Part shown: positions 5,964 to 52,793 of the stretch, piece after piece
Numbering within the stretch: position 1 is the first letter of the stretch
How the letters are laid out: each line of letters opens with the position of its first letter
NCBI GenBank assembly: GCA_950054155.1
Contig: CATLOT010000004.1
Location: 1 to 64,000 of the forward strand
Source of the DNA: an uncultured Bacteriovoracaceae bacterium
GTDB taxonomy: Bacteria > Bdellovibrionota > Bacteriovoracia > Bacteriovoracales > Bacteriovoracaceae
DNA: 64,000 nucleotides
Direction of reading: 5' to 3'
Program-made: the position numbers and the translations under genes
The notes under the pieces: generated by a model
Told to the model about the DNA's origin: nothing
Database searches by the model: none
Seen by the model: the letters and a program-made list of their open reading frames with translations, nothing else

Positions 5964-6052
5964 TTCTTCCCCGGTTTTGAGTATTGATGCACCTCCGTAT
6001 TTATCAAATTGACACAGACTTAACAACGCCAAGTGCGCCAATTAGTGGGGGG

Positions 6053-7237
6053 TTAGCCGGTATAGCCTTTGAGCATTGCGTTCCAATACATAAAGGGAAT
6101 TCCATATTTCTTTGCCAGGAACATGGAAAGGCGCTCCTTGGATTGATCAAAGGGAAAAGTTTCGTCAGGGTTACCGTCATAGTCAAACTCAGCCATTATG
6201 GCCTTATGATAACCCGTGACAAGCGGACAACTTGTGTAACCATTGTAGTGTTGGTTCGGCTCACGCTGGTTAATAACCTCAAAAAGGTTGTGAACGAGGA
6301 TGGGGACTTGTTTTCGGATGGCCGCGCCTGTCTTTGAGGTGGGAAGACTACTCGCATCACCTAATGAGAATATATTGTTAAACTTATTATGTTGAAGGGT
6401 GAACTTATCGACATCCACCCAGCCATCGGAATTAGCCAGTGGTGATGTCTTGATAAATTCAGGAGCGCTCATCGGGGGAACTGCATGAAGGAGACTAAAC
6501 TCTCTTTCAATAATCTCGTTCGTTTCGATGTTTTTAAAAAAAGCCAATTGATTGGGACCGTCTACTTTAACAAGATTGAGCTTAAAAGATGTTCTTATGT
6601 TTCGCTCTTTAATAACTTTTTCAAGCGCCTCTCTATATTTTTGAACGCCAAAAACTCTTTCACCCGCCGTGACGAACTCGACTTGAACAGAGTCTCTTAC
6701 CTTTGCTTTTTGAAAGTATTCTTCAGCAAGGTACATTATTTTTTGGGGCGCTCCACCACACTTTATAGGAGTATTGGGATAGGTGAAAAGGGCGTTGCCC
6801 TTTTTTAGGTTAGAAATGAACTCAAAGGTACTACTGACATATTGATAGTCATAGTTAGAGCACACCCCATTTTTTCCTAAGCTTTCTCTAAGGCCTTCTA
6901 CTTTGTCCCAGTCTATTTGAATTCCGGGACAAACGATGAGGTAATCATATTCCAAGCTCTTCTTATTAGCTAAATGGACAGTATTTTGTTCTGGTGAAAA
7001 CTTGGTAACATACTCTTGTTCCCAGTGGACACCTGCTGGAATGACCTCTTTCATTGGCTTTTGAGATTTTTCTTTTGGGAAAATACCGCCACCAACCAGC
7101 GTCCACAGGGGTTGATAGAAATGAAGTTGAGCCGGATCAATTAAAGTAATTTCAAATTGAGAGAACTTTCTTGCAAGGAGCGCAGCAGTTGTAATGCCTG
7201 CTGTACCTGCCCCAACGATGACGATATGTTTTTTCAT
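6053..7237 (-). CDS. sqr: Sulfide:quinone oxidoreductase, mitochondrial SQOR type
   Basis: Membrane-associated flavoprotein that oxidises sulfide to sulfane sulfur and passes electrons to quinone. FAD-binding GAGTAG sits at residues 9-14. Two redox cysteines match human SQOR: Cys160 in IKCGGAPQKIMYL and Cys337 in GYTSCPLVTGYH; Cys126 is a further candidate. The C-terminus (FPFDQSKERLSM, then FMYWNAMLKGY) also follows the animal mitochondrial enzyme closely. Length 394 aa is normal for the processed form. It overlaps the DUF442 gene by 4 bases and ends a three-gene operon with a persulfide dioxygenase, which supports sulfide oxidation rather than NADH dehydrogenase function. Confidence 0.93.
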   Translation of the reverse strand: MKKHIVIVGAGTAGITTAALLARKFSQFEITLIDPAQLHFYQPLWTLVGGGIFPKEKSQKPMKEVIPAGVHWEQEYVTKFSPEQNTVHLANKKSLEYDYLIVCPGIQIDWDKVEGLRESLGKNGVCSNYDYQYVSSTFEFISNLKKGNALFTYPNTPIKCGGAPQKIMYLAEEYFQKAKVRDSVQVEFVTAGERVFGVQKYREALEKVIKERNIRTSFKLNLVKVDGPNQLAFFKNIETNEIIEREFSLLHAVPPMSAPEFIKTSPLANSDGWVDVDKFTLQHNKFNNIFSLGDASSLPTSKTGAAIRKQVPILVHNLFEVINQREPNQHYNGYTSCPLVTGYHKAIMAEFDYDGNPDETFPFDQSKERLSMFLAKKYGIPFMYWNAMLKGYTG

Positions 7238-7719
7238 TTTAACCTTCCCGTTGTGATCATTTGGGAAACGGTTTTGGTGAGATCAGGATGAATCAGGCCA
7301 ACTTCTTTACTAAAACTTAATGCCCTATTCTTAGGGTGACCTTTAACAAAGCAAGAAATAAGAGCTAATAAGGCGCTCACTCTATTGCCAGACATACAAT
7401 AGATGAGAACTTTTCCCGAACTATTTTCAATGAGTTGATTAAGAGCGAGAAGTTCCTCAAACTTTATATTTTCAACTTTACTGATAGGAAAGTGAATATA
7501 CTCAATTGAGGAACCCTTGAATGCTTCTTCATCGCTGAATTCTGTCTCGTGTATCTCTTTAACATCAATGGCTTTTGTAATGTGATACCTTTCGAGTTCC
7601 TTTATTTGGTCATGACTTGATATCTTGGAAGCAATGAAAACATGATCAACACGAACAAAGTGGTCAAAACTATCACTTTGCAGGTCAAATTCTTTATCTT
7701 GGAGGTTAAGGCTCTTCAT
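7234..7719 (-). CDS. DUF442/Blh-type phosphatase-like protein
   Basis: A 161-aa protein of the DUF442 family, a dual-specificity-phosphatase-like fold often linked or fused to persulfide dioxygenase (as in bacterial beta-lactamase-hydrolase-like Blh). The active-site loop is IYCMSGNRVSALLAL, a Cys-x4-Arg signature near residue 113, and HFPI precedes it. Its neighbours suggest handling of sulfane sulfur, possibly as a sulfurtransferase, but its reaction is not established. It sits 3 bases after the dioxygenase gene and overlaps the SQR gene by 4 bases, so it is the middle gene of the operon. Confidence 0.8.
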   Translation of the reverse strand: MKSLNLQDKEFDLQSDSFDHFVRVDHVFIASKISSHDQIKELERYHITKAIDVKEIHETEFSDEEAFKGSSIEYIHFPISKVENIKFEELLALNQLIENSSGKVLIYCMSGNRVSALLALISCFVKGHPKNRALSFSKEVGLIHPDLTKTVSQMITTGRLK

Positions 7720-7722
7720 AAA

Positions 7723-8589
7723 TTAGCTCTCAATTGTGAGTGGTATTTTTAAATATCTCTTTCCATTACCTTCACTTTGAGGGAGCTTGCCAGCATCAAT
7801 ATTGACCTGAATACTAGGAAGAAGGAGGGTCGGAGCTGCGAGCTTTTTATCTCGAGAGGTCCTAAACTCAATAAACTCATCTCTTGAAGTGGATTCTTTT
7901 AGTTGAATATTCTCCTTCTTATTTTCACCGATAGAACTTTCAAACTTTAACTCGCGCCCATTTGGCTGATAGTCGTGACCTGTAAAAACACGAGTGCTTT
8001 CAGGAAGGGTGTATAGCTTTTCTTTTATTGAGTCGTAGAGTTGCTCAGCACTTCCCGCGGGAAAATCACATCTTCCTGTGCCAAAATCTGGCATGAACAA
8101 AGCATCGCCGGTAAAGATCATATCCTCTATAAGGTAGGATGAGCAGGCAGGAGTGTGGCCAGGTGTGAAAAGAGTTCTAACCTCAATCGTTCCAAAAGAC
8201 ATAGTTTCATTCTCATCAAGAAGAATATCAAATTGAGATCCATCGACTTTAAAATTATCGAGATTGAAGTGCGCACTAAAGAGCTCTTGGACTTTCGTGA
8301 TATTCTTACCAATGGCAACTTTGATGTGAGGAATTTTAACCTTGAGGAGGTTGGCCCCACTTAGATGGTCAGCATGGGCATGGGTTTCCAGGACAGCGTG
8401 TACAGTAAGATCTTTCTCTTCAGTAAAGGCGATAAGCTTTTCTACTGATTGGTGGCCAATCTTTCCTGATGCAGGGTCATAATCTAAGACAGGATCAATG
8501 ATTAAGGCATCCTTCGTCTTCTCGTCATAAACAACATATGTTAAAGTATAAGTATTCTTATCAAAAAAGGTCTCAAGTTTTTTAGTCAT
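7723..8589 (-). CDS. Persulfide dioxygenase (ETHE1/Blh-like metallo-beta-lactamase fold)
   Basis: Oxidises glutathione persulfide to sulfite with O2 and a mononuclear iron. The metal motif ETHAHADHLSGA gives His70, His72, Asp74 and His75; further ligands lie in TPGHTP, GDALFMPDFGTGRCDFPAGS and FTGHDY. The GTGRCDFPxGS stretch is characteristic of ETHE1/Blh dioxygenases rather than glyoxalase II. At 288 aa it has the longer Blh-type C-terminus. It is the first gene of the dioxygenase-DUF442-SQR operon and is divergent from a Crp/Fnr regulator across a 93-base gap containing an FNR-type palindrome about 67 bases before the start, with a TATTAC-like -10 (8625-8630 on the minus strand). Confidence 0.92.
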   Translation of the reverse strand: MTKKLETFFDKNTYTLTYVVYDEKTKDALIIDPVLDYDPASGKIGHQSVEKLIAFTEEKDLTVHAVLETHAHADHLSGANLLKVKIPHIKVAIGKNITKVQELFSAHFNLDNFKVDGSQFDILLDENETMSFGTIEVRTLFTPGHTPACSSYLIEDMIFTGDALFMPDFGTGRCDFPAGSAEQLYDSIKEKLYTLPESTRVFTGHDYQPNGRELKFESSIGENKKENIQLKESTSRDEFIEFRTSRDKKLAAPTLLLPSIQVNIDAGKLPQSEGNGKRYLKIPLTIES

Positions 8590-8647
8590 TTTTATCTCCT
8601 AAAAAAGATCATTCTTTTTCTAGAGTAATAAAATTGAAGAGAGAAAA

Positions 8648-8665
8648 CCTTGATGGGGCTCAAGG
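8648..8665. promoter_or_regulatory. FNR/CRP-type operator in the divergent gap
   Basis: Perfect inverted repeat CCTTGA-N6-TCAAGG. The TTGA-N6-TCAA core has the exact geometry of an FNR site. Its centre is near -40 from a start predicted after the TATTAC box for the dioxygenase operon, an activating position, and only 26 bases before the regulator's GTG, where it could give autoregulation. A second site with the same TTGATGGG half lies at 9343. Confidence 0.7.
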
Positions 8666-8682
8666 ATAGGAGATAGAAAGGG

Positions 8683-9330
8683 GTGGAATATCCACTTTAC
8701 CAGGTGATTATTATGTTTTATCAGTTAGTTAAGCCCAATATCCAAAATAAGAAAGAACTCATTTTTAAGAAGAATGAAATCATCTACCATGAAGGTGACT
8801 TTCCAGAGTATCTCTATTTTATCGAGAGTGGAGTTGTGGGTCTCTTTCATATCTCAGATTCAGGAAAGGAGACCTTTTTCAGGGTATTTGGAAAGAATGA
8901 TATTCTCGGTCACCGCTCCTATTTCGCGGAAGAGCCCTACCATGCCTCCTCAATAGCCCTTTCACCAGTGACCTTAGCCGTCATTACAAAGGACGAGTGC
9001 CTTCGGATTTGCTCTGAGAACCCATCTCTCTTAAGGGAAGTGACAGCGAGAATGGCGAGAGACTTAGGCCATGCTGAACTGAGAATGGCCGGTTTATTGG
9101 ATAAGACAGTTCATAAGAGAGTGGCAGAGAGCTTGCTCTATTTAAAGTTAAAACATCCAAACTATACATGGTCTCGCCGTGAAGTTGCTGAATACTCGGG
9201 AAGTACAACGGAGACGGTTTCTCGAGTGATGACTTCACTAGAGGGAAAGAATCTCATCAAAAAAGAAGGCCGTGATTTTATCATCCTAGATGAACAAGGA
9301 CTTCTTGAAGCTGATTTTGATCTAGCATAA
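8683..9330 (+). CDS. Crp/Fnr family transcriptional regulator
   Basis: An N-terminal cyclic-nucleotide-binding-like beta-roll (about residues 20-115) is followed by a long dimerisation helix and a C-terminal winged helix. The recognition helix STTETVSRVMTSLEG carries the E-x-x-S-R contacts typical of FNR, which read TTGAT half-sites, matching the boxes at 8648 and 9343. It lacks the N-terminal Cys cluster of oxygen-sensing FNR; Cys96 and Cys100 (counted from the internal ATG) are the only cysteines and could sense thiols or sulfide (inference). Start: the GTG at 8683 has AGGAG about 9 bases upstream; the ATG at 8713 is an alternative with a weaker AGGTG. Confidence 0.9.
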   Translation: MEYPLYQVIIMFYQLVKPNIQNKKELIFKKNEIIYHEGDFPEYLYFIESGVVGLFHISDSGKETFFRVFGKNDILGHRSYFAEEPYHASSIALSPVTLAVITKDECLRICSENPSLLREVTARMARDLGHAELRMAGLLDKTVHKRVAESLLYLKLKHPNYTWSRREVAEYSGSTTETVSRVMTSLEGKNLIKKEGRDFIILDEQGLLEADFDLA

Positions 9331-9342
9331 ATCTTCTTATTC

Positions 9343-9356
9343 TTGATGGGTATCAA
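9343..9356. promoter_or_regulatory. Consensus FNR box before the Rieske gene
   Basis: TTGATGGGTATCAA is a full match to TTGAT-N4-ATCAA. It is in the 75-base gap between the Crp/Fnr gene and the Rieske gene, 50 bases before the latter's ATG. It shares TTGATGGG with the site at 8648, so one regulator probably uses both. Confidence 0.75.
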
Positions 9357-9405
9357 TGTTTCTTCTTATAAAGGAGATTAGACTAACTCTATCAGGAGTT
9401 ATGCT

Positions 9406-9909
9406 ATGTCCACTTCATCAAATAGATCTCTTCAAAGACGCGAATTCTTTAGTCTCTTAAGCTTGTCATGGATCGCCCTCGCTGCAGGAGCATCTGGCTT
9501 ACTTGGACTTGTCTTTCGTTACACATTTCCTAATGTTCGTTTTGAACCCGATCTTGAATTTCGGATTGGCTTTCTTGATGATTTTAAAGAGGGAGTGGAT
9601 GAAACTTACAAGAAAACGAATGGTGTGTGGGTTGTTCGTGCAGAGGGAAAGCTCTTTGCTCTTAGTAATATCTGTACCCATTTAGGCTGTATACCCAACT
9701 GGACTCCAACGACACAAACCTTTGAATGCCCCTGTCATGGTTCAGGTTACTATATTTCTGGGATTAACTTTAAAGGACCTGCTCCGAGACCTTTGGAGCG
9801 CTATCAAATTAAGAAGAATGCCGATGGGAGTCTTTCCGTAAATAAAGGAAAGGTCTATCGTTATGAAAAGGGACAGTGGGGATTAGTAGGCTCTGAAATT
9901 CAAGCTTAG
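9406..9909 (+). CDS. Rieske 2Fe-2S protein, probable Tat substrate
   Basis: Membrane-anchored Rieske iron-sulfur protein of 167 aa. The N-terminus has a twin-arginine QRREFFSLL motif followed by a hydrophobic segment (about residues 20-38), as in QcrA/PetC anchors. The cluster boxes are CTHLGC (Cys90, His92, Cys95) and CPCHGSGY (Cys108, Cys110, His111): ligands C90, H92, C108, H111 and a C95-C110 disulfide. No cytochrome b or c1 gene is adjacent, so it is an orphan here; its place next to a Crp/Fnr regulator and sulfide oxidation genes suggests an accessory electron-transfer role. AGGAG lies 7 bases before the ATG. Confidence 0.9.
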   Translation: MSTSSNRSLQRREFFSLLSLSWIALAAGASGLLGLVFRYTFPNVRFEPDLEFRIGFLDDFKEGVDETYKKTNGVWVVRAEGKLFALSNICTHLGCIPNWTPTTQTFECPCHGSGYYISGINFKGPAPRPLERYQIKKNADGSLSVNKGKVYRYEKGQWGLVGSEIQA

Positions 9910-42405: not shown

Positions 42406-44970
42406 GTGAAATCTTTAATCGTTGTTCTCTTTTCTCTTTATTTAGCATCTAGCTGGGCGTTAGATGATGAGAGGTATGACGCTAAAAAACCTACCTTCTT
42501 CTTGAATGCGGGTTTTCTTCTCAAGGATTTGAATGATCCTGAAAGTGGATTTTCGTCTAAAGGTGAAGAGTTTTTAAAAACAATAATCTCAAGTCAGAAA
42601 TTTAATATCATCTTAACGGATGCCCCCTGGCCAGATCTAACTGGAGGGATCGATCCCCTTAAAGATAATCCTAAGCTCAAAAACCTCTTCTTTAGGCTTG
42701 GTAAGAAAGTATTCGAAGATGATTTTGATTTTTCAAAACTAACACCTGACTTTAATTTTAGTGTTCTCCCAAGAAGATGCACCATTCAGGGGGTGCCCGT
42801 TGATATTGAATTATGCAAAGAGCTGATTTCAGTAGAATACCGCTGGGTTAAAGAAGGTAAAGAATGTGGCTTATTTGAAGTAGGTGCTCAGCAATGGATC
42901 GAATTGGTTAACCTTAATTATTGTAAAGCCGATTACTTAATTGAGTTTGAAGACAAACTTCAGTCCCAAGTTCTTTCCCATTGTGCGGAGTCGATGTCTT
43001 GTCTGAATAAGGTTATGAATGATGAAAGCCTAAGTCTTGTCGATACCTTTCATGACCTTCTTCTCAAAAGTCGTATTGATTCTCTTAGGACAAAAATAAC
43101 AAGAGATGAAGCTTATCAGTATGAAGAAGACTTAACGCAATTAAGGAGGGAGATTGACCAGTTTCGATTACAGTGCGAAACGGAAAATGATTTTAGCTTT
43201 ATAAAAGAAAACCTAGATCCTGATGGTGTAGGAATGGAGCTCTATCAAAAGGGTCTTGCTGATTTAGAAAAAGGTTTTCTGATTCACTCCAAGGGTAGTT
43301 TTACTGAGGAAGAAAAGCGAGAAACCTACGCTCAATCTATTGGTGCCCTTAATAAATGCTTGCGTGAAGAACTTCAAAAGTTTAAAGAGAATCAGAGAGA
43401 CGGTTCCCGAATCCTTCCGGAAAATGAAAAATGGATTGTTAAAATGTGTCAGTATAATCAATTTAATTTTTTACTCTCTGAAACGGCGAAGAAAGAGGCC
43501 GGTGAAAAGTATTATCTCAGCCTTGATAACCTCACCTGTATATGTCCGACTAAGGAAGTGAGAAAGCTTAGTCGCCAGGATATACCTTCCCTTCGTTCAT
43601 TCAACATTAACTATGATTCCCAACGATGTTTTGACGCTGTTATTGATAATAGTCAAAATATAGAAAAGCTTTCACTTTATCAGGAAATGAGAAGGTTCTC
43701 TAACAATATAGGAGTGAGAGATCCTAGTTATGTAAAGCTTGCTGAAGAGAATTTTAAAAAGTGTCTAAATGATGGCGAAGGGTCACGTGAAGAATGTGAA
43801 AGGATATCGCTGGTAAGAGCGAAGGGGGAAGTGATTTATAATAATCTCCTTGATAATAAAGAGTATGGATCCAATGAAACGATTCGTTTATCCCGACAAG
43901 AGGGAGAAAAGGAAAGATTCATAAAATCTTTTATTGAAAATACAAAGGTCACGACTTGCTTTAGTGATTATTCAAATAAGACCGATTTCTATAAAAAGTG
44001 TAAGGACTTAGCGAGTACTCTTCTTGTTGTTCAAGAGCCTATCAAGCGCCGAGGGAGAGAAGTTATCGACACCAGTAAAATGGCTCAAGACGCTCTTGTT
44101 GATGATCTTGATGAAATCGTTGTAGAGCTTGATCGTGAGATTTCAGTCTTTCATTGGGGAGAAGTCAGTCTTTTAAATGGGGCAAAAGCTGATCAGCCTA
44201 TACCTGTTCAGTCACTTTGTTCTCGTGGATATTTGAATTTGAGGCAGAAGATGTTTCATGTTGGTCCTGTCGGTAATTTCTTTGTGCCAGTTTCAGATAA
44301 TGTCACAAATGCCGGACGAGGTCTTTATGCTGCTGCTGATCCCAACTCAACTTCTCAATTTGGAGATACTCTCTTTGAAATTAAGGTTCCTAAAGGGGAA
44401 AAATATCTTGATTTGAGAAGAAAGGGCTCAAACGGAGGTATCCCTCTAAGTAAAGATACTCTTCAGAAATTGAGTGATGCTGGATGCAATGTCGGATATC
44501 ACGCCAAACGTTATTATGAACAAGAAGTGGGAAGAGGCCATCACGCCGATCGCGTTTTAATTGATAAAGCAGTTTTTGAGTCTAAGGGGACTTGTCACCG
44601 CCTCTTTTCTCGCGCTATCAACGAACTTGATGTAGGACTTCTCTCTTATAGTTACGAAATGGATGTTAATAGAATTTGTGATTCTAAAACACGAAGTAGA
44701 GGTGCTTTTGTCTTTATTGATATGAATTTTAGAGGAAGAGTCAATCAATTTAATCAAGAGTCTATAACTCATGCTTTAAAAGAGTTTAATGATAAGGGGA
44801 CACCAATACCTGAAGAAATTAAAAGAATTATGCAGATCACTGAGCGTACCTTTAGGGGGGCTTCAGAGTTTAATAGAAATACCTCAGATGAAGAAGTTAT
44901 GGAGTATTGGAAAGAAAGACTCTTTCACTGTGATGGCCTGAAAGAGGAGTTTCTTCACGTGCCACAGTAA
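42406..44970 (+). CDS. Large exported protein, possible ADP-ribosyltransferase-like C-terminal domain
   Basis: An 854-aa protein with signal peptide (MKSLIVVLFSLYLASSWA). The central region is Cys-rich and mostly helical with no domain I recognise. Around residues 610-660 it reads KMFHVGPVG (His618), then GRGLYAAADPNSTSQFG (Tyr641), then an FEIKVP strand. In PARP/ART-fold toxins a His and a Tyr in G-x-Y-x-A-x-x-P-x-x-S context form the NAD site, so the resemblance is close, but no third catalytic Glu is certain. It could be a secreted ADP-ribosyltransferase effector (inference). The 3' end overlaps selO by 16 bases. GTG start. Confidence 0.55.
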   Translation: MKSLIVVLFSLYLASSWALDDERYDAKKPTFFLNAGFLLKDLNDPESGFSSKGEEFLKTIISSQKFNIILTDAPWPDLTGGIDPLKDNPKLKNLFFRLGKKVFEDDFDFSKLTPDFNFSVLPRRCTIQGVPVDIELCKELISVEYRWVKEGKECGLFEVGAQQWIELVNLNYCKADYLIEFEDKLQSQVLSHCAESMSCLNKVMNDESLSLVDTFHDLLLKSRIDSLRTKITRDEAYQYEEDLTQLRREIDQFRLQCETENDFSFIKENLDPDGVGMELYQKGLADLEKGFLIHSKGSFTEEEKRETYAQSIGALNKCLREELQKFKENQRDGSRILPENEKWIVKMCQYNQFNFLLSETAKKEAGEKYYLSLDNLTCICPTKEVRKLSRQDIPSLRSFNINYDSQRCFDAVIDNSQNIEKLSLYQEMRRFSNNIGVRDPSYVKLAEENFKKCLNDGEGSREECERISLVRAKGEVIYNNLLDNKEYGSNETIRLSRQEGEKERFIKSFIENTKVTTCFSDYSNKTDFYKKCKDLASTLLVVQEPIKRRGREVIDTSKMAQDALVDDLDEIVVELDREISVFHWGEVSLLNGAKADQPIPVQSLCSRGYLNLRQKMFHVGPVGNFFVPVSDNVTNAGRGLYAAADPNSTSQFGDTLFEIKVPKGEKYLDLRRKGSNGGIPLSKDTLQKLSDAGCNVGYHAKRYYEQEVGRGHHADRVLIDKAVFESKGTCHRLFSRAINELDVGLLSYSYEMDVNRICDSKTRSRGAFVFIDMNFRGRVNQFNQESITHALKEFNDKGTPIPEEIKRIMQITERTFRGASEFNRNTSDEEVMEYWKERLFHCDGLKEEFLHVPQ

Positions 44971-46370
44971 GTATTTTTGACGACTTCTCCTGCCGCTGGC
45001 TCCTCATCCAAGCCAAAAGATTCACTTTGCTCTTCGAATGGATTTTTAAGAACTTTATTCACTTGATGAAAGAGAGAGAAATCGCCCTCATGGCCAAGGT
45101 CAATGACTTTTTCGATAATATGATTACGTGGAGTATAGAGCGGGTTGATTCCATAGAGTTGCTCAAGTTCGGATTCATCAATATTCTGGAGCCAATTCTC
45201 TTTAAAGTCATGAAGCTCTTTGCTTTCTGGGAAGAAAGTGGATTCATCACTGTAAAGGCGGGGGAGTTCTCTAAAGGCCTTGGTAAAGTCTAGTTTTTCT
45301 TTTTCTAACAACGAGAGAAATTCTTCGACTAGAGAGGAGTTGTCTTGATCTTTAAGCGCCATTTTTTGAGCAAAGATTTCCTCTCTCTTCTTTTCAAAGA
45401 GGGGAAAGAGCTTTTCTAATTCTTTTTCTACCTTATTGATCGCCACATCAATATCACTATCAATGAGGGGGAGAAGACAGTCAGCCAGACGAAGGATATT
45501 CCACTTGGCAATGGGAACTTGATTCCAAAAACTATATCGTCCCTGTTCATCAATGGAGCTGAACTTCTTATGAAAAGAGAATTTATCCATGAAGGCGCAA
45601 GGGCCATAGTCAATTGTGATGGCATCAAGGGCAAAATTATCGGTATTCATCACGCCATGAATAAATCCAAGGCCTGACCATTTTGCGACGAGATCACTTT
45701 GGCGTCTTGTGAACTCTCTTAAAAGGGCAAGGCATCTTTCCGGTTGGTCTTTTAAGGAGAGGAGATTGGGGTAGTGTCTCTTTAGGGTGTAATCCAAGAG
45801 GACTTTGAGGTTTTCATGATCTTTTTTAAAAGCAAAATATTGGAATGTCCCTACTCTAATATGACTACTGGCAACCCGTGTAAAGACCCCACCGGGCTCT
45901 GGACCAAATTGGCGAAGAACAGTTTCACCCGTTCCTATGGCCGCAAGGGCGCGGGTGGTGGGAACACCAAGAGTGTGCATCGCTTCACTGACGATATATT
46001 CCCTTAGGACTGGTCCAAGTGCACTTCTTCCGTCACCGCGACGAGAGAAGGGGGTTTGACCTGAACCCTTGAGTTGGATATCGAAACCATTAACTTCGCC
46101 GAGGAGAAGGGCGCGCCCATCGCCGAGTTGAGGAACGGGATGACCAAACTGCATACCCGCATAGGCCATTGCAATGGGATCACTACCTTTAAAAAGTTTT
46201 TGACCTGAAAAAAATTGAGTCAACTCTTCCTGAGAAAAACCATGGATACCTAGCTCTTGAGCGAGTTCCTCATTTAAGGCAATGAGCTTTGGTTGAGAAA
46301 AGTCCGCGGGACTTTGTCTCTTGTAGAATTCTTCGGGGAGTGTTGTATAGGTATTGTTAAAGGATATCAT
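44955..46370 (-). CDS. selO: SelO/YdiU protein adenylyltransferase
   Basis: A 471-aa pseudokinase-fold enzyme that AMPylates protein Ser/Thr/Tyr residues. Family stretches: MAYAGMQFGHPVPQLGDGRALLLGE, QLKGSGQTPFSRRGDGRSALGPVLREYI, GVPTTRALAAIGTGE, HGVMNTDNFA and IDYGPCAFMD. Bacterial SelO is often near 480-520 aa; this one is slightly short. The conserved C-terminal Cys (selenocysteine in many eukaryotes) is present in YCGT at the end. In E. coli SelO acts in redox homeostasis through S-glutathionylation. Confidence 0.93.
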   Translation of the reverse strand: MISFNNTYTTLPEEFYKRQSPADFSQPKLIALNEELAQELGIHGFSQEELTQFFSGQKLFKGSDPIAMAYAGMQFGHPVPQLGDGRALLLGEVNGFDIQLKGSGQTPFSRRGDGRSALGPVLREYIVSEAMHTLGVPTTRALAAIGTGETVLRQFGPEPGGVFTRVASSHIRVGTFQYFAFKKDHENLKVLLDYTLKRHYPNLLSLKDQPERCLALLREFTRRQSDLVAKWSGLGFIHGVMNTDNFALDAITIDYGPCAFMDKFSFHKKFSSIDEQGRYSFWNQVPIAKWNILRLADCLLPLIDSDIDVAINKVEKELEKLFPLFEKKREEIFAQKMALKDQDNSSLVEEFLSLLEKEKLDFTKAFRELPRLYSDESTFFPESKELHDFKENWLQNIDESELEQLYGINPLYTPRNHIIEKVIDLGHEGDFSLFHQVNKVLKNPFEEQSESFGLDEEPAAGEVVKNTYCGT

Positions 46371-46425
46371 AGGAGCATATTAGCAGGGCATGGGTAGGCA
46401 TGTTAAGGTTAAGGGGGGAGGAATT

Positions 46426-47811
46426 GTGCAGATTTTAAAAATAATAGCTTTACAGGCACTTTGGTTTCTCATTGTGCTCTACGGAAAAGACTATTCGCCC
46501 TTAATAGGTGTCCTTGGGGCAGGTGTCTTCGTTTTACTCGATCTCCTTTTCTATAGACCTAAAGCTGGAATAAGGAATTACCTCTCAAGGCTCCTTTTCT
46601 TTATTTGCTTTGGTGCCCTTCACGATTTTCTTCTTCTAAAGATGAATATCGTTAAGACGGGGAGCTATAGTCTTAACTTTCTCCTATTATGGGTGGTCTT
46701 CATTGGCTACTATGATGAAATTTTTAATAAAATGAGAAAACTTCCTCTCTTGGTTAAAGTTCTCTTTGGTGGGATTGGGGGAGCACTGGCCTATAATGCA
46801 GCCATTCGCTTAGGTGCACTTGAAGCTTCAGATAATAAGTTTTGGGCCTTAATGACATTTACTTTTATTTCATGGTCTTTCTTTTTTCCTTTTAGTTTAT
46901 GGTTATATGATATGAAAAGTTTTAAAGATAAAATCCTTGATGCACTAGTTGTAACTTCTTTTGATTCAAGTGGTTATAAAAGGCACTCCCAGGACTTTAA
47001 AGAAATTGCTCCCGCCGCTGGCAAGAAGGTTCTCGTAACAGGTGGAACGGGGGGCATTGGAAGAAGCGTTGTTGAGCAACTTCTCAATCTCAAGTGCTCG
47101 GTTCACTTCATGGGGCGAAATAAAGAGAAGGGCGAGCAATACGCTCAAAAAGGAGGACACTTTCATCAGCTTGATATGGCGGCCTGGTCGCAAATTCAAA
47201 GCACTTGTGATGAGTTTGATGAAGCATTTGACTATGTCGTTCTTAATGCCGGTGGTATGCCCGAAGAACTTACTCTTAATGAGAAGGGCGTTGAAATGCA
47301 ATGTGCCTCTCAACTTATTGGTCATTATCGCCTCATTAAGACTCTTAAGGACAAAGGTCTCTTAAAGCCTGCTGCTCGTATTGTCTTTGTGAGCTCTGGA
47401 GGAATGTATTTACGAAAACTTGATCTCAAAGAACTCCTTAAGCCAGATGATTATGATAAGGTTGCAACCTATGCCAATGTCAAAAGGGCTCAAGTGACCT
47501 TTGTTGAGGAAATTGTTAAGGATGAGGAATGGAAAGACTATAATCTCTTTTCTATGCATCCTGGCTGGGTTGATACTGGTGGCCTAAAGGAAGCCCTTCC
47601 TGGGTTTTATAAACTCTTTGGAAACAGGTTACGAAATGCGCAACAGGGTGCGGACACAATCGTTTGGTTACTCCTTACTCCTAAGGACCCTGAGCGCGGT
47701 GGCTTCTTCTTTGATAGAGAGAAAGTTTCACCCGTTATTCACAGCACCTTTAGCCCCGATGCTCGGCAAAGAGAAGATCTTATGAAACTGGTAAAGAGCT
47801 ACTCTCTGTAA
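46426..47811 (+). CDS. DUF2878-SDR fusion protein
   Basis: Residues about 1-160 are membranous with five or six helices and resemble DUF2878. Residues about 200-450 are a classical short-chain dehydrogenase: VLVTGGTGGIGRS cofactor motif, VLNAGG, VFVSSGGMY and catalytic YANVK (Tyr and Lys), with HPGWVDT. The family is like DHRS12/retinol dehydrogenase-type SDRs. In other bacteria DUF2878 is a separate gene near lipid-modifying enzymes, so a membrane-anchored SDR for a lipid substrate is inferred. The GTG at 46426 has GGGGAGGAATT before it and starts at the membrane domain; an ATG at 46390 is possible. Confidence 0.75.
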   Translation: MQILKIIALQALWFLIVLYGKDYSPLIGVLGAGVFVLLDLLFYRPKAGIRNYLSRLLFFICFGALHDFLLLKMNIVKTGSYSLNFLLLWVVFIGYYDEIFNKMRKLPLLVKVLFGGIGGALAYNAAIRLGALEASDNKFWALMTFTFISWSFFFPFSLWLYDMKSFKDKILDALVVTSFDSSGYKRHSQDFKEIAPAAGKKVLVTGGTGGIGRSVVEQLLNLKCSVHFMGRNKEKGEQYAQKGGHFHQLDMAAWSQIQSTCDEFDEAFDYVVLNAGGMPEELTLNEKGVEMQCASQLIGHYRLIKTLKDKGLLKPAARIVFVSSGGMYLRKLDLKELLKPDDYDKVATYANVKRAQVTFVEEIVKDEEWKDYNLFSMHPGWVDTGGLKEALPGFYKLFGNRLRNAQQGADTIVWLLLTPKDPERGGFFFDREKVSPVIHSTFSPDARQREDLMKLVKSYSL

Positions 47812-47893: not shown

Positions 47894-47918
47894 GGGGCAA
47901 TAAATCGATTATTGGCCC
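47894..47918. promoter_or_regulatory. Inverted repeat before the 2OG oxygenase operon
   Basis: CAATAA (47898-47903) and TTATTG (47909-47914) with a 5-base spacer, flanked by GGG and CCC so the arms extend with one mismatch. It lies about 30 bases before the 2OG oxygenase start and could be an operator or leader hairpin. Short and unproven. Confidence 0.3.
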
Positions 47919-47944: not shown

Positions 47945-48568
47945 ATGCAGATTAGTGAGACCTGTAGAAATTCGAATACGACTTTTGAAAGCATAGGGCA
48001 TAACCTTGAGGAACAAGGTTATGTCTTCGTGCCTCAACTTCTTAGTGAAAGTCATGTGAGTCATCTTCTGACCCTTTTCCAAAAGAAGCTAGAAAATGAT
48101 GCCTTTCATGAAGCAAGGGTCGGAACAAGCTTAGAGAAAACCCTTGAAAAGCGCATTCGAAAATCAGAAACAGCATGGATTGAGGATTGGAGTGATATTG
48201 ATTTTCTCTCTCTCTTCTATGCTGAATTAATGTCCAAATTAAATCTCTACTTCTTTTTAAGTTTAAAGAGATGGGAATCACAATTTGCCTTCTATCCTCG
48301 AGGTGGTTTTTATAGGAAACACCTCGACCAATTAAGAGGTGAGCGCCATCGCCAGATCACCAGTATTTTCTATCTTAATGACTGTGTTAAAGGCGGAGAA
48401 CTCATCATTTATGACCGAGAGGATAAAGGAAAGGTGGCGCTGACTGTCTCTCCTCGTCAGGGGGATTTGGTTATTTTCCAGTCTTCTCAAATTTTTCATG
48501 AAGTAAAAGAAGTTTACGATCATCGCTTTAGTTTAACGACTTGGTTTAGAGATGATTCTGATTTTTAA
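47945..48568 (+). CDS. 2-oxoglutarate/Fe(II) dioxygenase (prolyl-4-hydroxylase-like)
   Basis: A 207-aa double-stranded beta-helix enzyme. Iron ligands are His126 and Asp128 in RKHLDQ and His185 in IFHEV; Arg194 in HRFSLTTWF is the 2-oxoglutarate anchor. IFYLNDCVKGGELIIYD and SPRQGDLVIFQS are typical of P4H-like members. Substrate unknown; family members hydroxylate Pro or other side chains. The ATG at 47945 was chosen over a TTG at 47912 because the repeat lies there; the ribosome site is weak. It is 9 bases before the ATP-grasp gene, the first of a five-gene run. Confidence 0.85.
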   Translation: MQISETCRNSNTTFESIGHNLEEQGYVFVPQLLSESHVSHLLTLFQKKLENDAFHEARVGTSLEKTLEKRIRKSETAWIEDWSDIDFLSLFYAELMSKLNLYFFLSLKRWESQFAFYPRGGFYRKHLDQLRGERHRQITSIFYLNDCVKGGELIIYDREDKGKVALTVSPRQGDLVIFQSSQIFHEVKEVYDHRFSLTTWFRDDSDF

Positions 48569-48577
48569 GGAAGGTTT

Positions 48578-50002
48578 ATGAGTAGAGAAATAGAAATGAA
48601 AAGTCCTGATAACTTTGAGCAGGATCATCACTTTTACCCAAAGGCGTTGAACTCACAATTGCATCCTATTGTGAGTCATTTTTTTAATTTAAATAAAGAT
48701 CAGATAATTAAACGCTATCTTCATCTCAATCCTCAAGTCGCTGAAGATACTCTTAGGGAGATCCTCTCTTATGTTCCCGAATATTATTTTTGGGGTGGAA
48801 GTGATCTCTTCTACGTCACGACTGAGACGGGAAAGAGGAGGATGGTTGTTCTTGAGACTAATTCATGTCCTTCTGGTCAGAAGTCAATGCCCCCTCGAAG
48901 TGATACTGATGAGTACAGAGGCTATCGTTTTCTCATTGAAAACTCATTTCTTCCCCAACTTAATAATAACCTCCCAGAGGGGGTTCTCGCCATAATTTAC
49001 GATAAGAATTACATGGAGACATCGGGTTATGCTCAAACCCTTTCTGATATGACTGGAGAGCCTGTTTATCTTGTTCCTCACTTTAATAATGAAGAGCAGT
49101 ATATCGAGTGGGAAGATGGAGTGATGGTCATCAGCCTTCCAGATGGTGAAAGGAAGCGTGTTAGGGCATGTATTCGCTACGTCACACAAAAACCATGGAA
49201 TCGTCTGCCTACGACATCAAAGACTTTTATAAGCAACTCCTCTCTCGTTTGCCTTTCCGGAGGGAGAAATAAGCTTCTTGCCAATAAAGCCTATGAGCTT
49301 CTTAACTCTGAGTTAGCCGAGTCAGGGTTGCAGATACACACTCCTGAAACCATAAAAGACGTCAATAAAGTTGAAGTCCCTCTATGGGTGGAGCGCTTTG
49401 GCGGTAAGGCCGTGATTAAAAACCCCTACTCAAATGCGGGGCAAGGGGTGTGGACCATTACTAATGAAAGTGAACTTCAGACATTTATGGATGAGAATCA
49501 TAGTTATGGTCAGTTTATTGTGCAGAGTCTTGTAGGCCACTTTGAATGGAGTTCAACGAGTAAGCATGGAAAATTCTTTCATGTGGGAACTGTTCCCAAT
49601 AAAAAGGGAAATATCTTCGTCTCTGATCTTAGAGTCATGGTTTGTAGTTCCCCTTCAGGTTACTTGCCTTGTGCTATGTACGCGCGCCGAGCGCGTTCTC
49701 CACTTGAAGCACAGCTGACAACAAATAGCTGGGATGTTTTAGGAACAAATCTTTCTGTGAAAAAAGCTCAAAACGAATGGGATAGTGAAACCAGTCGTTT
49801 AATGCTGATGGATCGTAAAGACTTTAATTCACTTGGAATTGGTATTGATGATCTCATTGAGGCCTTTATTCAATCGGTTCTAAGTGTTATTGCCATTGAT
49901 AAGATGGCGAAGCGATTAATCAACAAGAAGGGGCAATTCAAAATGAAGTTATTTAAGTCTCTAGATAACGACGAAGCTCTCTTAAAGGAAATAATGGTTT
50001 AA
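48578..50002 (+). CDS. ATP-grasp ligase
   Basis: A 474-aa ATP-grasp superfamily enzyme. The N-terminal subdomain has VVLETNSCPSGQ, the middle GGRNKLLANKAYELL, the nucleotide-binding KAVIKNPYSNAGQGVWTI, and the metal-binding DLRVMVCSS with MYARRARSPL. Such enzymes join a carboxylate to an amine or other nucleophile with ATP. The product is unknown. The ATG has AAGGAAGG before it, and the AstE-like gene starts 2 bases after the stop, so the pair is likely translationally linked; this ATP-grasp-AstE pairing is known in peptide-tagging and amidoligase gene neighbourhoods. Confidence 0.85.
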   Translation: MSREIEMKSPDNFEQDHHFYPKALNSQLHPIVSHFFNLNKDQIIKRYLHLNPQVAEDTLREILSYVPEYYFWGGSDLFYVTTETGKRRMVVLETNSCPSGQKSMPPRSDTDEYRGYRFLIENSFLPQLNNNLPEGVLAIIYDKNYMETSGYAQTLSDMTGEPVYLVPHFNNEEQYIEWEDGVMVISLPDGERKRVRACIRYVTQKPWNRLPTTSKTFISNSSLVCLSGGRNKLLANKAYELLNSELAESGLQIHTPETIKDVNKVEVPLWVERFGGKAVIKNPYSNAGQGVWTITNESELQTFMDENHSYGQFIVQSLVGHFEWSSTSKHGKFFHVGTVPNKKGNIFVSDLRVMVCSSPSGYLPCAMYARRARSPLEAQLTTNSWDVLGTNLSVKKAQNEWDSETSRLMLMDRKDFNSLGIGIDDLIEAFIQSVLSVIAIDKMAKRLINKKGQFKMKLFKSLDNDEALLKEIMV

Positions 50003-50004
50003 TT

Positions 50005-51024
50005 ATGAGTCACATTAAAGTTATAAAAACAAAGGATGATCTCGACCTCGAAGAATTTGAGGCAGGCGAAGTTCACCGTGTCCACGTTCATCTCACGGAT
50101 AATCCTCTTGGTGTCCCTTGGCGAATTCCTGTTATTCTAGTTAAGGGAAAATATGATGGACCTGTTTTAGGAGTAACGGCAGCACTTCACGGTAATGAAC
50201 TCAATGGTATTTCGACGATCTTTAAATTAATCGAAGATATTGATCCAAATGAACTTCATGGTAGTTTGATACTTGTACCGATTAGTAATGTGCCGGGCTA
50301 TCTCGGCAATAGAAGGTTTTTTTCTGATAATGTCGATTTAAATCGTATTATGCCTGGTAAAGAAAATGGATCAACAAGTCAGCTCTATGCTCATTTCTTT
50401 ACGTCTAAAATAATTAGTAAGTTTGAATATCTTCTCGATCTCCATACAGCGAGTCATGGCCGAGTGAATAGCCTTTATATCCGAGCAGACTTAGAGAATG
50501 AGGATACGCGGACATTAGCCTATCTTCAAAATCCTCAAATCATTGTCCAGAAGTTCGATGAGGAGGGGACACTACGCGGTTGGGCTAATGAAAGGGATAT
50601 TCCAGCGATTACAATTGAGATTGGTAATCCAAGTGCATTTCAGCACTCTCTTATTGATGAGACTTTAGAGGGAATTCTTAACACCCTTCGACATTTAAAG
50701 ATGATACCGGGGCGAGTTGAAAATATGGTAAACGATGCCACGGTGTGTGATCACAGCTATTGGATTTATTCTAAGAAAGGCGGTATCGTAGACGTTCTCC
50801 CGTCATTGGCCGACGAAGTGACAAAAGGTCAGGTGATCGCTCGCATCTATGATGTATTTGGCCAAATTCGTGAAGAAGTGGTCGCCGACAAGAATGGTAT
50901 CGTCATTGGGAAGAATATAAACCCTAGTTGTAACGCTGGTACTCGCATACTGCATTTAGGCGTCAACTTCATCGATCCTGCACCTGAAACCATTCCGGGA
51001 CACGACGATTTTAATGATCATTGA
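50005..51024 (+). CDS. AstE/AspA-like zinc carboxypeptidase-fold hydrolase
   Basis: A 339-aa member of the succinylglutamate desuccinylase/aspartoacylase family (M14-like). Zinc ligands His62 and Glu65 in ALHGNELNG, and His147 in LLDLHTASHG; Arg in VDLNRIMPG binds substrate carboxylate. A C-terminal biotinyl-lipoyl-like beta-barrel domain (from about 255: KKGGIVDVLPSLADEVTKGQVIARIYD) is typical of the longer members. It cuts an acyl or amino acid from an amide. With the ATP-grasp gene it would form a make-and-remove pair (inference). It overlaps the GNAT gene by 11 bases. Confidence 0.88.
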   Translation: MSHIKVIKTKDDLDLEEFEAGEVHRVHVHLTDNPLGVPWRIPVILVKGKYDGPVLGVTAALHGNELNGISTIFKLIEDIDPNELHGSLILVPISNVPGYLGNRRFFSDNVDLNRIMPGKENGSTSQLYAHFFTSKIISKFEYLLDLHTASHGRVNSLYIRADLENEDTRTLAYLQNPQIIVQKFDEEGTLRGWANERDIPAITIEIGNPSAFQHSLIDETLEGILNTLRHLKMIPGRVENMVNDATVCDHSYWIYSKKGGIVDVLPSLADEVTKGQVIARIYDVFGQIREEVVADKNGIVIGKNINPSCNAGTRILHLGVNFIDPAPETIPGHDDFNDH

Positions 51025-51550
51025 AACAGAAAGATTAGATTTAAGACCTTGGAAAGAAAGTGACCGTGAGCCCTTTTATCAAATGTGCTCAGACCCTGAA
51101 GTGATGGAGTTTTTTCCTAAAACTCTTAATCGCGAGGAGAGTGATGCCTTTGTTGATAAGGCGATGGCAGCGATGGATGAACAAGGCTGGGGCCTCTTTG
51201 CTGTAGAGATACGTGACACAGAAGAGTTCATTGGCTTTATTGGTTTAAATAAACCTCAGTTTGATGCTCCTTTCACTCCTTGTGTAGAGATTGGTTGGCG
51301 ACTGGATAAGAAGTATTGGAAGAAAGGTTTCGCAACGGAAGGTGCTCAGGCCCTACTTCAATTTGCTTTCATTAAAGTAGACACGGATGAAATTGTCTCT
51401 TTTACTTCCAAGCTAAACAAACCGAGCATTAAGGTTATGGAAAAAATAGGAATGACAAGAGATGAAGCAGGTGATTTTGATCACCCCATGGTTGAAGAGG
51501 GCAGTCCTCTTCGCCGTCATGTTCTCTATCGTTACAAGAAAGGAAAATAA
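51014..51550 (+). CDS. GNAT acetyltransferase, RimJ/RimL-like
   Basis: A 178-aa GNAT-fold acetyltransferase: TERLDLRPWKESDREPFY at the start is the RimJ/RimL-like signature, IGWRLDKKYWKKGFATEGAQALLQFAF is the acetyl-CoA-binding motif A, and SFTSKLNKPSIKVMEKIGM follows. These acetylate N-termini, small amines or amino acids. It overlaps the AstE-like gene by 11 bases and ends directly before the glyoxalase start, so it belongs to the same operon. Confidence 0.88.
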   Translation: MIIETERLDLRPWKESDREPFYQMCSDPEVMEFFPKTLNREESDAFVDKAMAAMDEQGWGLFAVEIRDTEEFIGFIGLNKPQFDAPFTPCVEIGWRLDKKYWKKGFATEGAQALLQFAFIKVDTDEIVSFTSKLNKPSIKVMEKIGMTRDEAGDFDHPMVEEGSPLRRHVLYRYKKGK

Positions 51551-52027
51551 ATGTCAGAAACTGCGGGCTATAGATTTAACCATACTATGCTAAGAGTAAA
51601 AGACCCTAAGGCGTCTCTTGAATTCTATCAAGAAGTTTTGGGAATGACTCAGATTCGAAGGCTTGATTTTGAGGAGTGGAAGTTTTCACTTTACTTTCTC
51701 GCTCATATAACTGGGGAAGTCCCTTCTGAAGAAGAGGAAAATGCCAAGTACACTTTTGGAAGAGAGGGCGTTTTAGAGCTTACCCACAACTGGGGAACCG
51801 AAGAGCTAAAAGAAACTCCTTATCATGATGGAAATAGTGAGCCACAGGGCTTTGGGCATATTTGTATTTCGGTACCCGATATTCACAAGGCGTGTGAACG
51901 ATTTGATCGTCTTGGAGTCACTTTTAAGAAGCGGCTTGAAGATGGCAATATGAATAATATTGCTTTTATTAAAGATCCTGATGGCTATTGGATTGAAATT
52001 GTTCAACCCGACTTTATGAAGCGATAG
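51551..52027 (+). CDS. gloA: Glyoxalase I (lactoylglutathione lyase)
   Basis: A 158-aa enzyme resembling the eukaryotic long zinc form: FNHTMLRVKDPKASLEFYQEVLGM, MTQIRRLDF, LELTHNWGTE, GFGHICISV and DPDGYWIEIV. Metal-ligand positions are His in FNHTML, Glu in LELTHN, His in FGHI and Glu in WIEIV. It converts the methylglyoxal-glutathione hemithioacetal to lactoylglutathione. Its ATG directly follows the GNAT stop. It may be a passenger in this operon rather than part of the ligase pathway. A hairpin follows 11 bases after the stop. Confidence 0.93.
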   Translation: MSETAGYRFNHTMLRVKDPKASLEFYQEVLGMTQIRRLDFEEWKFSLYFLAHITGEVPSEEEENAKYTFGREGVLELTHNWGTEELKETPYHDGNSEPQGFGHICISVPDIHKACERFDRLGVTFKKRLEDGNMNNIAFIKDPDGYWIEIVQPDFMKR

Positions 52028-52079: not shown

Positions 52080-52793
52080 CTAGAAATTAGCAAGCCTTGA
52101 GACCGCTTGCTTCGTCTTTTTAAATAATTTATCACCAAAGCTTACACCAACCATAAATCCAACACTGATATCCTCTAGATTATCCGGTGTATCGCTTGAG
52201 TATTGTCTTACATTTCCACCAGCAAGGTACTTAGCTTCCGTTTCACGGTATTTTGTATAGCTTGCAAAGACTTTGTAATTGATGGCCTCAAGAACTGAAC
52301 TTTGGGGGCGGTAGTTTTTAAACTGAAGACCGAGCTTTCCTCCATAGCCCCATAACTCCTGACCGTTATCTTCATGATCTCCCGTTGCTGGATCTAGGTA
52401 TTCAGCAGAGTTACTAAGGTCAGAGCTATTGTAGAAAACTCCAATGAAGGGAGCATAACTCCAGTTACTCTCATCACTCTTAATGTGATACTTCAAAGTC
52501 GGTCCAACATTAAAGGACTGCCAATTAAAGTCATCTGTCTGAGTTGGATTGCCACCAAAGGAAAAGGAGAAGTCTTTCTGTCTTCCGATAGAGTAATTAG
52601 CGTCAATACTTAAATCAAAGTTGTCCCAAGCGTAACCAAGAGAAACCTCTGAGGTGAAAGCATTCTGTCCTTTGTAAGAACCATTGTCCCCACTGATTTC
52701 CTTTCTTAAGGCACCACCAGAGAGGTCCACATAGACTGAAGCGAGGGTTGAAGTTGAGAGTAGAGAAAGTGTTAAAAGCGTTTTTATTTTCAT
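52080..52793 (-). CDS. Outer membrane beta-barrel protein
   Basis: A 237-aa protein with signal peptide MKIKTLLTLSLLSTSTLA, then alternating-polarity strands (VYVDLSGG, EVSLGYAWDNFDLSIDANYS, FNVGPTLKYHI, APFIGVFYNSS and so on) and a conserved Asn/Gly-rich loop pattern. It looks like an OmpA/OmpW-like small barrel. Ligand unknown. GGAGG lies 6 bases before the ATG. Confidence 0.75.
   Translation of the reverse strand: MKIKTLLTLSLLSTSTLASVYVDLSGGALRKEISGDNGSYKGQNAFTSEVSLGYAWDNFDLSIDANYSIGRQKDFSFSFGGNPTQTDDFNWQSFNVGPTLKYHIKSDESNWSYAPFIGVFYNSSDLSNSAEYLDPATGDHEDNGQELWGYGGKLGLQFKNYRPQSSVLEAINYKVFASYTKYRETEAKYLAGGNVRQYSSDTPDNLEDISVGFMVGVSFGDKLFKKTKQAVSRLANF

Follow-up and report, generated by a model that had tools for sequence, protein, structure and literature searches.

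Five closely packed open reading frames (ORFs) in DNA from an uncultured Bacteriovoracaceae bacterium (contig CATLOT010000004.1, positions 1 to 64,000, here called the window) raise the question of whether they encode one pathway or whether a smaller unit lies among local neighbors. A preliminary description of this DNA had proposed a single five-gene module. At its center are a gene for an ATP-grasp ligase of 474 amino acids (48578 to 50002, plus strand; here GRASP), with a glutathione (GSH) synthetase-like predicted fold, and the next gene, which encodes an AstE/DoeB-like zinc amidohydrolase of 339 amino acids (50005 to 51024, plus strand; here AstE).

Conservation of the GRASP-AstE pair

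A pattern scan covering 84,980 species genomes yielded 59 loci, and as GRASP alone was the search query, adjacency to AstE was not built into the sample. The GRASP proteins were 50 to 74% identical across these loci and came mostly from Bacteriovoracales-type Bdellovibrionota and from Bacteroidota (Tenacibaculum and Saprospiraceae); single records were labeled Dadabacteria, Halanaerobiaceae, Cloacimonadota, and gammaproteobacteria, some of which are possibly binning errors. AstE lay directly downstream of GRASP in 45 of the 59 loci, with a median gap of 0 bases and a gap of 20 bases or fewer in 44 of the 45. One to three genes separated the two in nine further loci, and a second ATP-grasp gene was always among them. 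The contigs of two of the remaining five loci ended too early, and three loci had no nearby AstE: L067, on a short contig that ends past a second ATP-grasp gene, and L040 and L047, where an AstE orthologue was present elsewhere in the genome. Moreover, surveys at the phylum and class levels added five nonduplicate loci, all of which kept the pair, one with a second ATP-grasp gene in between.

GRASP was present in 16 of 59 genomes of relatives, all 16 of which also carried an AstE orthologue (E < 1e-100), and only one of the 59 (G007, 75% complete) had an AstE orthologue but no GRASP. The phylum survey found GRASP in 47 of 369 genomes with scores that were either above approximately 700 bits or near zero, which indicates that the family is sharply bounded; in the class of Tenacibaculum, 7 of 295 genomes were positive. 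GRASP is single copy in the window's own genome. In a phylogenetic tree, GRASP-linked AstE formed one clade, apart from the AstE proteins linked to RimB and RimK (99/97), and a separate cluster in the window's own genome (contig C9; L081, 7925 to 10304) was observed to unite RimK with a RimB-like retropepsin and another AstE paralogue. The synteny check thus found the pair kept beyond this strain, in Bdellovibrionota and Bacteroidota, and co-occurring across relatives, which supports the earlier suggestion that ligase and hydrolase make and break a bond. We conclude that GRASP-AstE is a genuine, widely kept two-gene unit. No description of an ATP-grasp/AstE pair or of an ATP-grasp/polyamine operon was found in the open-licence literature, and the proposal of an undescribed small-molecule or protein-tagging pathway survives for the pair but not for the five-gene set.

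Families, folds, and residues of the two proteins

GRASP had no Pfam match at the set threshold, no PHROG match, and no NCBIfam match over cutoff. A weak match to RimK (0.0048; TIGR00768, 16.3 bits versus a cutoff of 143.4) left it outside that family, the ATP-grasp matches of 37 scanned homologues were all below threshold, no Gsp-synthase Pfam match was found in any of the 37, and a profile search of Protein Data Bank (PDB) sequences with GRASP returned nothing convincing. The AlphaFold2 model (pLDDT 87.5, pTM 0.90) had as its top Foldseek match 3n6x (E 1.1e-8, probability 1.00, TM ~0.41), deposited as a putative glutathionylspermidine (Gsp) synthase. Next came the yeast (1e-7), human, and soybean GSH or homoglutathione (hGSH) synthetases, followed by ArgX, LysX, RimK, and Ddl; Escherichia coli Gss itself was absent from the top 50 fold matches. 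The model thus has a GSH/Gsp-synthetase-type fold, and the original ATP-grasp call is upheld because the predicted fold supports it.

Within the region from D76 to P105 of GRASP (48803 to 48892, plus strand), which is presumed to be the Mg2+/acyl-phosphate site, D76, E93-x-N95, and PSGQKSMP were invariant in 37 sequences. We take the spacing of D76 and E93-x-N95 to be that of the Mg-ligand motif of human GSS, an equivalence drawn from motif and spacing. We conclude that GRASP, as modeled, is a predicted new ligase family on a known fold, outside the sequence libraries searched.

AstE belongs to the AstE/AspA/DoeB amidohydrolases by its AstE_AspA_cat domain (PF24827; 9.3e-33, 113.8 versus a cutoff of 25 bits), and it fell below the equivalog cutoffs for AstE (TIGR03242, 24.5 versus 305.65 bits) and DoeB (TIGR02994, 91.2 versus 402.7 bits). 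The closest folds to its AlphaFold2 model (pLDDT 91.8) were DoeB (7e-28), CphZ (5e-20), and E. coli AstE (6e-13), then aspartoacylase and CCP5. H62, E65, R104, H147, and E205 were invariant across 33 AstE sequences, giving an H-x-x-E...H site whose zinc motif, H62-G-N-E65, is encoded at 50188 to 50199 on the plus strand. From knowledge of the family, we take H62, E65, and H147 to be the zinc ligands, Arg104 to act at the carbonyl, and Glu205 to be the general base; Arg114, beside Asn113, varies to His or Thr. Judged by these residues, AstE is predicted to be an intact zinc amidohydrolase with all catalytic residues present. None of astA to astD was among the examined window neighbors of AstE. 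No known name fits the pair; the preliminary description had said that none of RimK, ArgX, and AstABCDE suits all five genes.

A candidate reversible reaction and its rivals

Gene identities, predicted folds, conserved catalytic residues, conservation of the pair, and recurring neighbors are directly supported. We infer that the ligase and hydrolase share one bond and that the substrate is a small molecule, and likewise any role of polyamines. Specifically, we consider it somewhat probable, at roughly 55%, that GRASP-AstE makes and breaks a small soluble amide, either a peptide or a peptide-amine conjugate. GRASP would phosphorylate a small acid or peptide on its carboxylate and then couple the activated acid to an amine, such as an amino acid or a polyamine-like compound. 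AstE, made from the next gene, would hydrolyze the same class of amide. The pair could in this way set the level of the amide, or store and release it, like the synthetase and amidase of Gss or like CphA and CphZ, and a second ligase, similar to RimK or to GshB, may add another unit in many lineages.

Known systems offer partial parallels. E. coli Gss, in which synthetase and amidase are joined in one protein, likewise couples an ATP-grasp ligase to an amide hydrolase, but its amidase is fused, whereas the hydrolase here is of the zinc AstE type and is encoded by a separate gene. YgiC and YjfC are peptide-spermidine ligases, according to a work cited in PMC12568646. The resemblance of GRASP to Gss, YgiC, and YjfC lies in its top fold match, a putative Gsp synthase, and in the polyamine genes that recur near the pair in Bacteroidota. 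In cyanophycin clusters, an ATP-grasp synthetase is paired with the AstE-type hydrolase CphZ (PMC10206079), and there the zinc hydrolase encoded with the ligase splits the product. The cyanophycin ligase is of another family, however; no cyanophycinase was seen among the recurring neighbors of the pair, and CphZ is a more distant fold match to AstE than DoeB.

The fetched loci, which span up to about 8 kb, contained several recurring partners. Arginine decarboxylase and agmatinase genes were found in 12 of the 59, nearly all from Bacteroidota, as well as in L133; a deoxyhypusine-synthase-like gene was found in 10 of the 59, as well as in L133 and L077. Thirteen loci encoded a VOC protein, and a second ATP-grasp gene lay within 3 kb in 14, being S6-ligase-like in L077 and GshB-like in Saprospiraceae (L056). 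Gene order differed among Tenacibaculum, L054/L066/L069, Saprospiraceae, and L133, an argument that the association has arisen repeatedly or been maintained. Taking five separate arrangements, a rough binomial calculation gives approximately 1e-7, a figure that assumes independence and is indicative only. The link to polyamines is circumstantial; at least for Bacteroidota, it suggests that one substrate is an amine derived from arginine. Tentatively, the pair could represent an undescribed reversible pathway, resting on a new ATP-grasp family plus a hydrolase of the AstE type, in which agmatine or a polyamine is joined to an amino acid or peptide. It would be spread among Bdellovibrionota, Bacteroidota, and a few further phyla, and the second ATP-grasp ligase and the VOC protein would perform additional steps. 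Two small acidic families, c7 and c8, also recurred in Tenacibaculum, where they lie between GRASP and the polyamine genes (L057, 6902 to 7450, and similar loci), and their scanned representatives had no Pfam match. Separately, a GNAT-nitrilase fusion protein recurred near the pair in two phyla (L018, L024, L029, L033, L077, and L133).

Several results weigh against the small-amide reading. TM-scores to the best folds are only ~0.4, which indicates that the domain arrangement or detail of GRASP differs from them. Membership in the Gss/YgiC/YjfC family by profile was rejected (hhalign E 0.044, probability 1%, not significant), and an invariant Gly74 occupies the position that corresponds, by spacing, to the presumed catalytic Arg of the R-x-D motif in GSS, Gss, and Cp1B. 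The polyamine link is missing in most Bdellovibrionota, and obligate dependence on the deoxyhypusine-synthase-like gene was rejected, the gene being present, among the window's relatives, in 9 of 16 genomes with GRASP versus 28 of 43 others. Finally, the SET-domain and kinase/phosphatase genes that neighbor the pair would fit protein modification equally well.

Protein tagging is the main rival, albeit an unlikely one. RimK adds residues to ribosomal protein S6, and tubulin ligases add residues to tubulin; GRASP might similarly attach them to a protein, at a terminus or on a side chain, and AstE might trim them as do RimB or the M14-type CCP deglutamylases. Both folds occur in tagging systems, with TTLL6 (E 0.01) among the GRASP matches and CCP5 among the AstE matches, and a RimK gene that exceeds the S6-ligase cutoff adjoins AstE in L077. 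RimK and RimB are a known ligase/protease pair (PMC12239564), and genes of the SET-domain and kinase/PP2C types recur near such loci. The best folds for GRASP are nevertheless small-peptide ligases rather than RimK or TTLL, the closest relatives of AstE work on small N-acyl amino acids or dipeptides, and in Bacteroidota the pair is clustered with genes of arginine/agmatine metabolism. The RimK-RimB(-AstE) system resembles GRASP-AstE as a ligase/hydrolase pair, one that the window's genome carries elsewhere, but GRASP is not RimK, the pair has no retropepsin, and its AstE falls in a separate clade. SET-domain-looking proteins were observed near RimK/AstE or GRASP loci in L033 (6027 to 6503), L071 (5926 to 6546), L072 (7430 to 7993), and L090 (9172 to 10015), and a small Ser/Thr-kinase-like gene adjoined a PP2C-like phosphatase gene near the pair in several Bdellovibrionota (L025, L026, L032, L033, L052, and L077).

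A role in osmoprotection, in which the pair would make and degrade a dipeptide-like compatible solute, as in the metabolism of N-acetylglutaminylglutamine amide (NAGGN) or ectoine, appears improbable. AstE has its closest solved fold and named sequence relative in DoeB/EutE of ectoine degradation, many carriers are marine, as judged by record names only, and a LysR regulator nearest to NhaR is encoded immediately upstream in 17 loci, from Bdellovibrionota. That regulator is under the NhaR cutoff, however (131 versus 219 bits), AstE is only ~20% identical to DoeB/EutE and far below the DoeB cutoff (91 versus 403 bits), no other ectoine genes were seen beside AstE, nor did the recurring neighbors show any further gene for ectoine or NAGGN metabolism. 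We favor a small peptide or peptide-amine conjugate as the product of GRASP-AstE.

Local neighbors and meaning of the pair

The pair is flanked in the window by three further plus-strand ORFs: upstream, a 2-oxoglutarate (2OG)-Fe(II) oxygenase gene (47945 to 48568; PF13640, 6.6e-21; here OG), with an alternative in-frame TTG start open at 47912, and downstream, genes for a GNAT acetyltransferase (51014 to 51550; PF13302, 1.8e-39) and glyoxalase I (51551 to 52027; TIGR00068, 201.5 versus a cutoff of 120 bits). The place, strand, and spacing of the five ORFs (9, 2, -11, and 0 bases) were as first described, and the spacing by itself would fit a single transcript with translational coupling. In a scan for sigma-70-type promoters, promoter-like sites were no commoner than in shuffled sequence. 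Opposite-strand genes flank the five, namely SelO (44955 to 46370) and an ORF without a Pfam match (52080 to 52793), and a gene 133 bases upstream of OG (46390 to 47811) encodes an N-terminal DUF2878 region and a C-terminal short-chain dehydrogenase (SDR) domain. Farther upstream, an ORF of 854 amino acids (42406 to 44970) looks secreted and has no Pfam match. The closest solved relative of OG is PDB 4iw3, which we take to be the Pseudomonas prolyl hydroxylase.

That the five genes form one module, as the preliminary description held, was not borne out. Homologues of OG, GNAT, and glyoxalase were not detected beside the pair in the 59 other GRASP loci, and orthologues (E <= 1e-25) of GNAT and glyoxalase were scarce, being found in 4 and 3, respectively, of 36 genomes searched, the window's own included. 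OG homologues occurred in 13 of 59 genomes and mostly lay away from the pair where a genome had both. The exception was the distant genome G011 (L077), in which an OG homologue directly adjoins AstE with GRASP 4 kb off; pyroglutamyl-peptidase, OG homologue, and AstE genes are contiguous there (5427 to 9597), and divergent RimK and deoxyhypusine-synthase-like genes adjoin them. In G006 (L082, 4934 to 6588), a prolyl-hydroxylase-like OG and a deoxyhypusine-synthase-like gene share a strand and are 14 bases apart. Together, the two arrangements are a hint of a loose functional link for OG. A five-gene pathway, in which OG and GNAT would tailor the ligase product and glyoxalase would complete the route, could draw on the operon-like packing in the window genome, on the G011 arrangement, and on E-64 biosynthesis, which employs both a 2OG oxygenase and an ATP-grasp ligase of GSH-synthetase fold (PMC12568646), but the synteny makes it very improbable. 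OG, GNAT, and glyoxalase look like local neighbors of the pair.

The GSH-type glyoxalase I in the window, together with the predicted overall fold that GRASP shares with eukaryotic-type GSH and hGSH synthetases, could point to GRASP as the lineage's synthetase of glutathione, or of a glutathione-like thiol, serving the adjacent enzyme. We regard this as more doubtful still. Glyoxalase is not conserved with the pair, GRASP has no sequence family match to GSH/hGSH synthetases or to fungal Cp1B of E-64 synthesis, and no link to a gamma-Glu-Cys pathway was seen. Moreover, GshB-like matches, nearly all below the equivalog cutoff, were found in the window's genome and in most relatives, with or without GRASP, which weakens the idea of GRASP as a stand-in for GshB; replacement of GshB in genomes that lack it was rejected on the same grounds. 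A plasmid or phage origin was also rejected, with no plasmid match, no match in viral contigs, no PHROG match, and no viral fold match (E <= 0.001), as was a defense system, the pair having no PADLOC match and OG matching only a broad CRISPR-associated 2OG model.

GRASP-AstE is thus a compact unit of two proteins and one predicted reversible bond, in which a ligase outside the family libraries searched is nonetheless strongly conserved (50 to 75% identity across phyla) and linked to a single hydrolase. Concrete guesses about the substrates come from the second ligase and the arginine/agmatine genes that recur nearby. Were the product a protein tag, the pair would constitute a new reversible modification; were it a new peptide, or a new conjugate of a peptide with a polyamine, predatory and marine bacteria would gain a class of metabolite.

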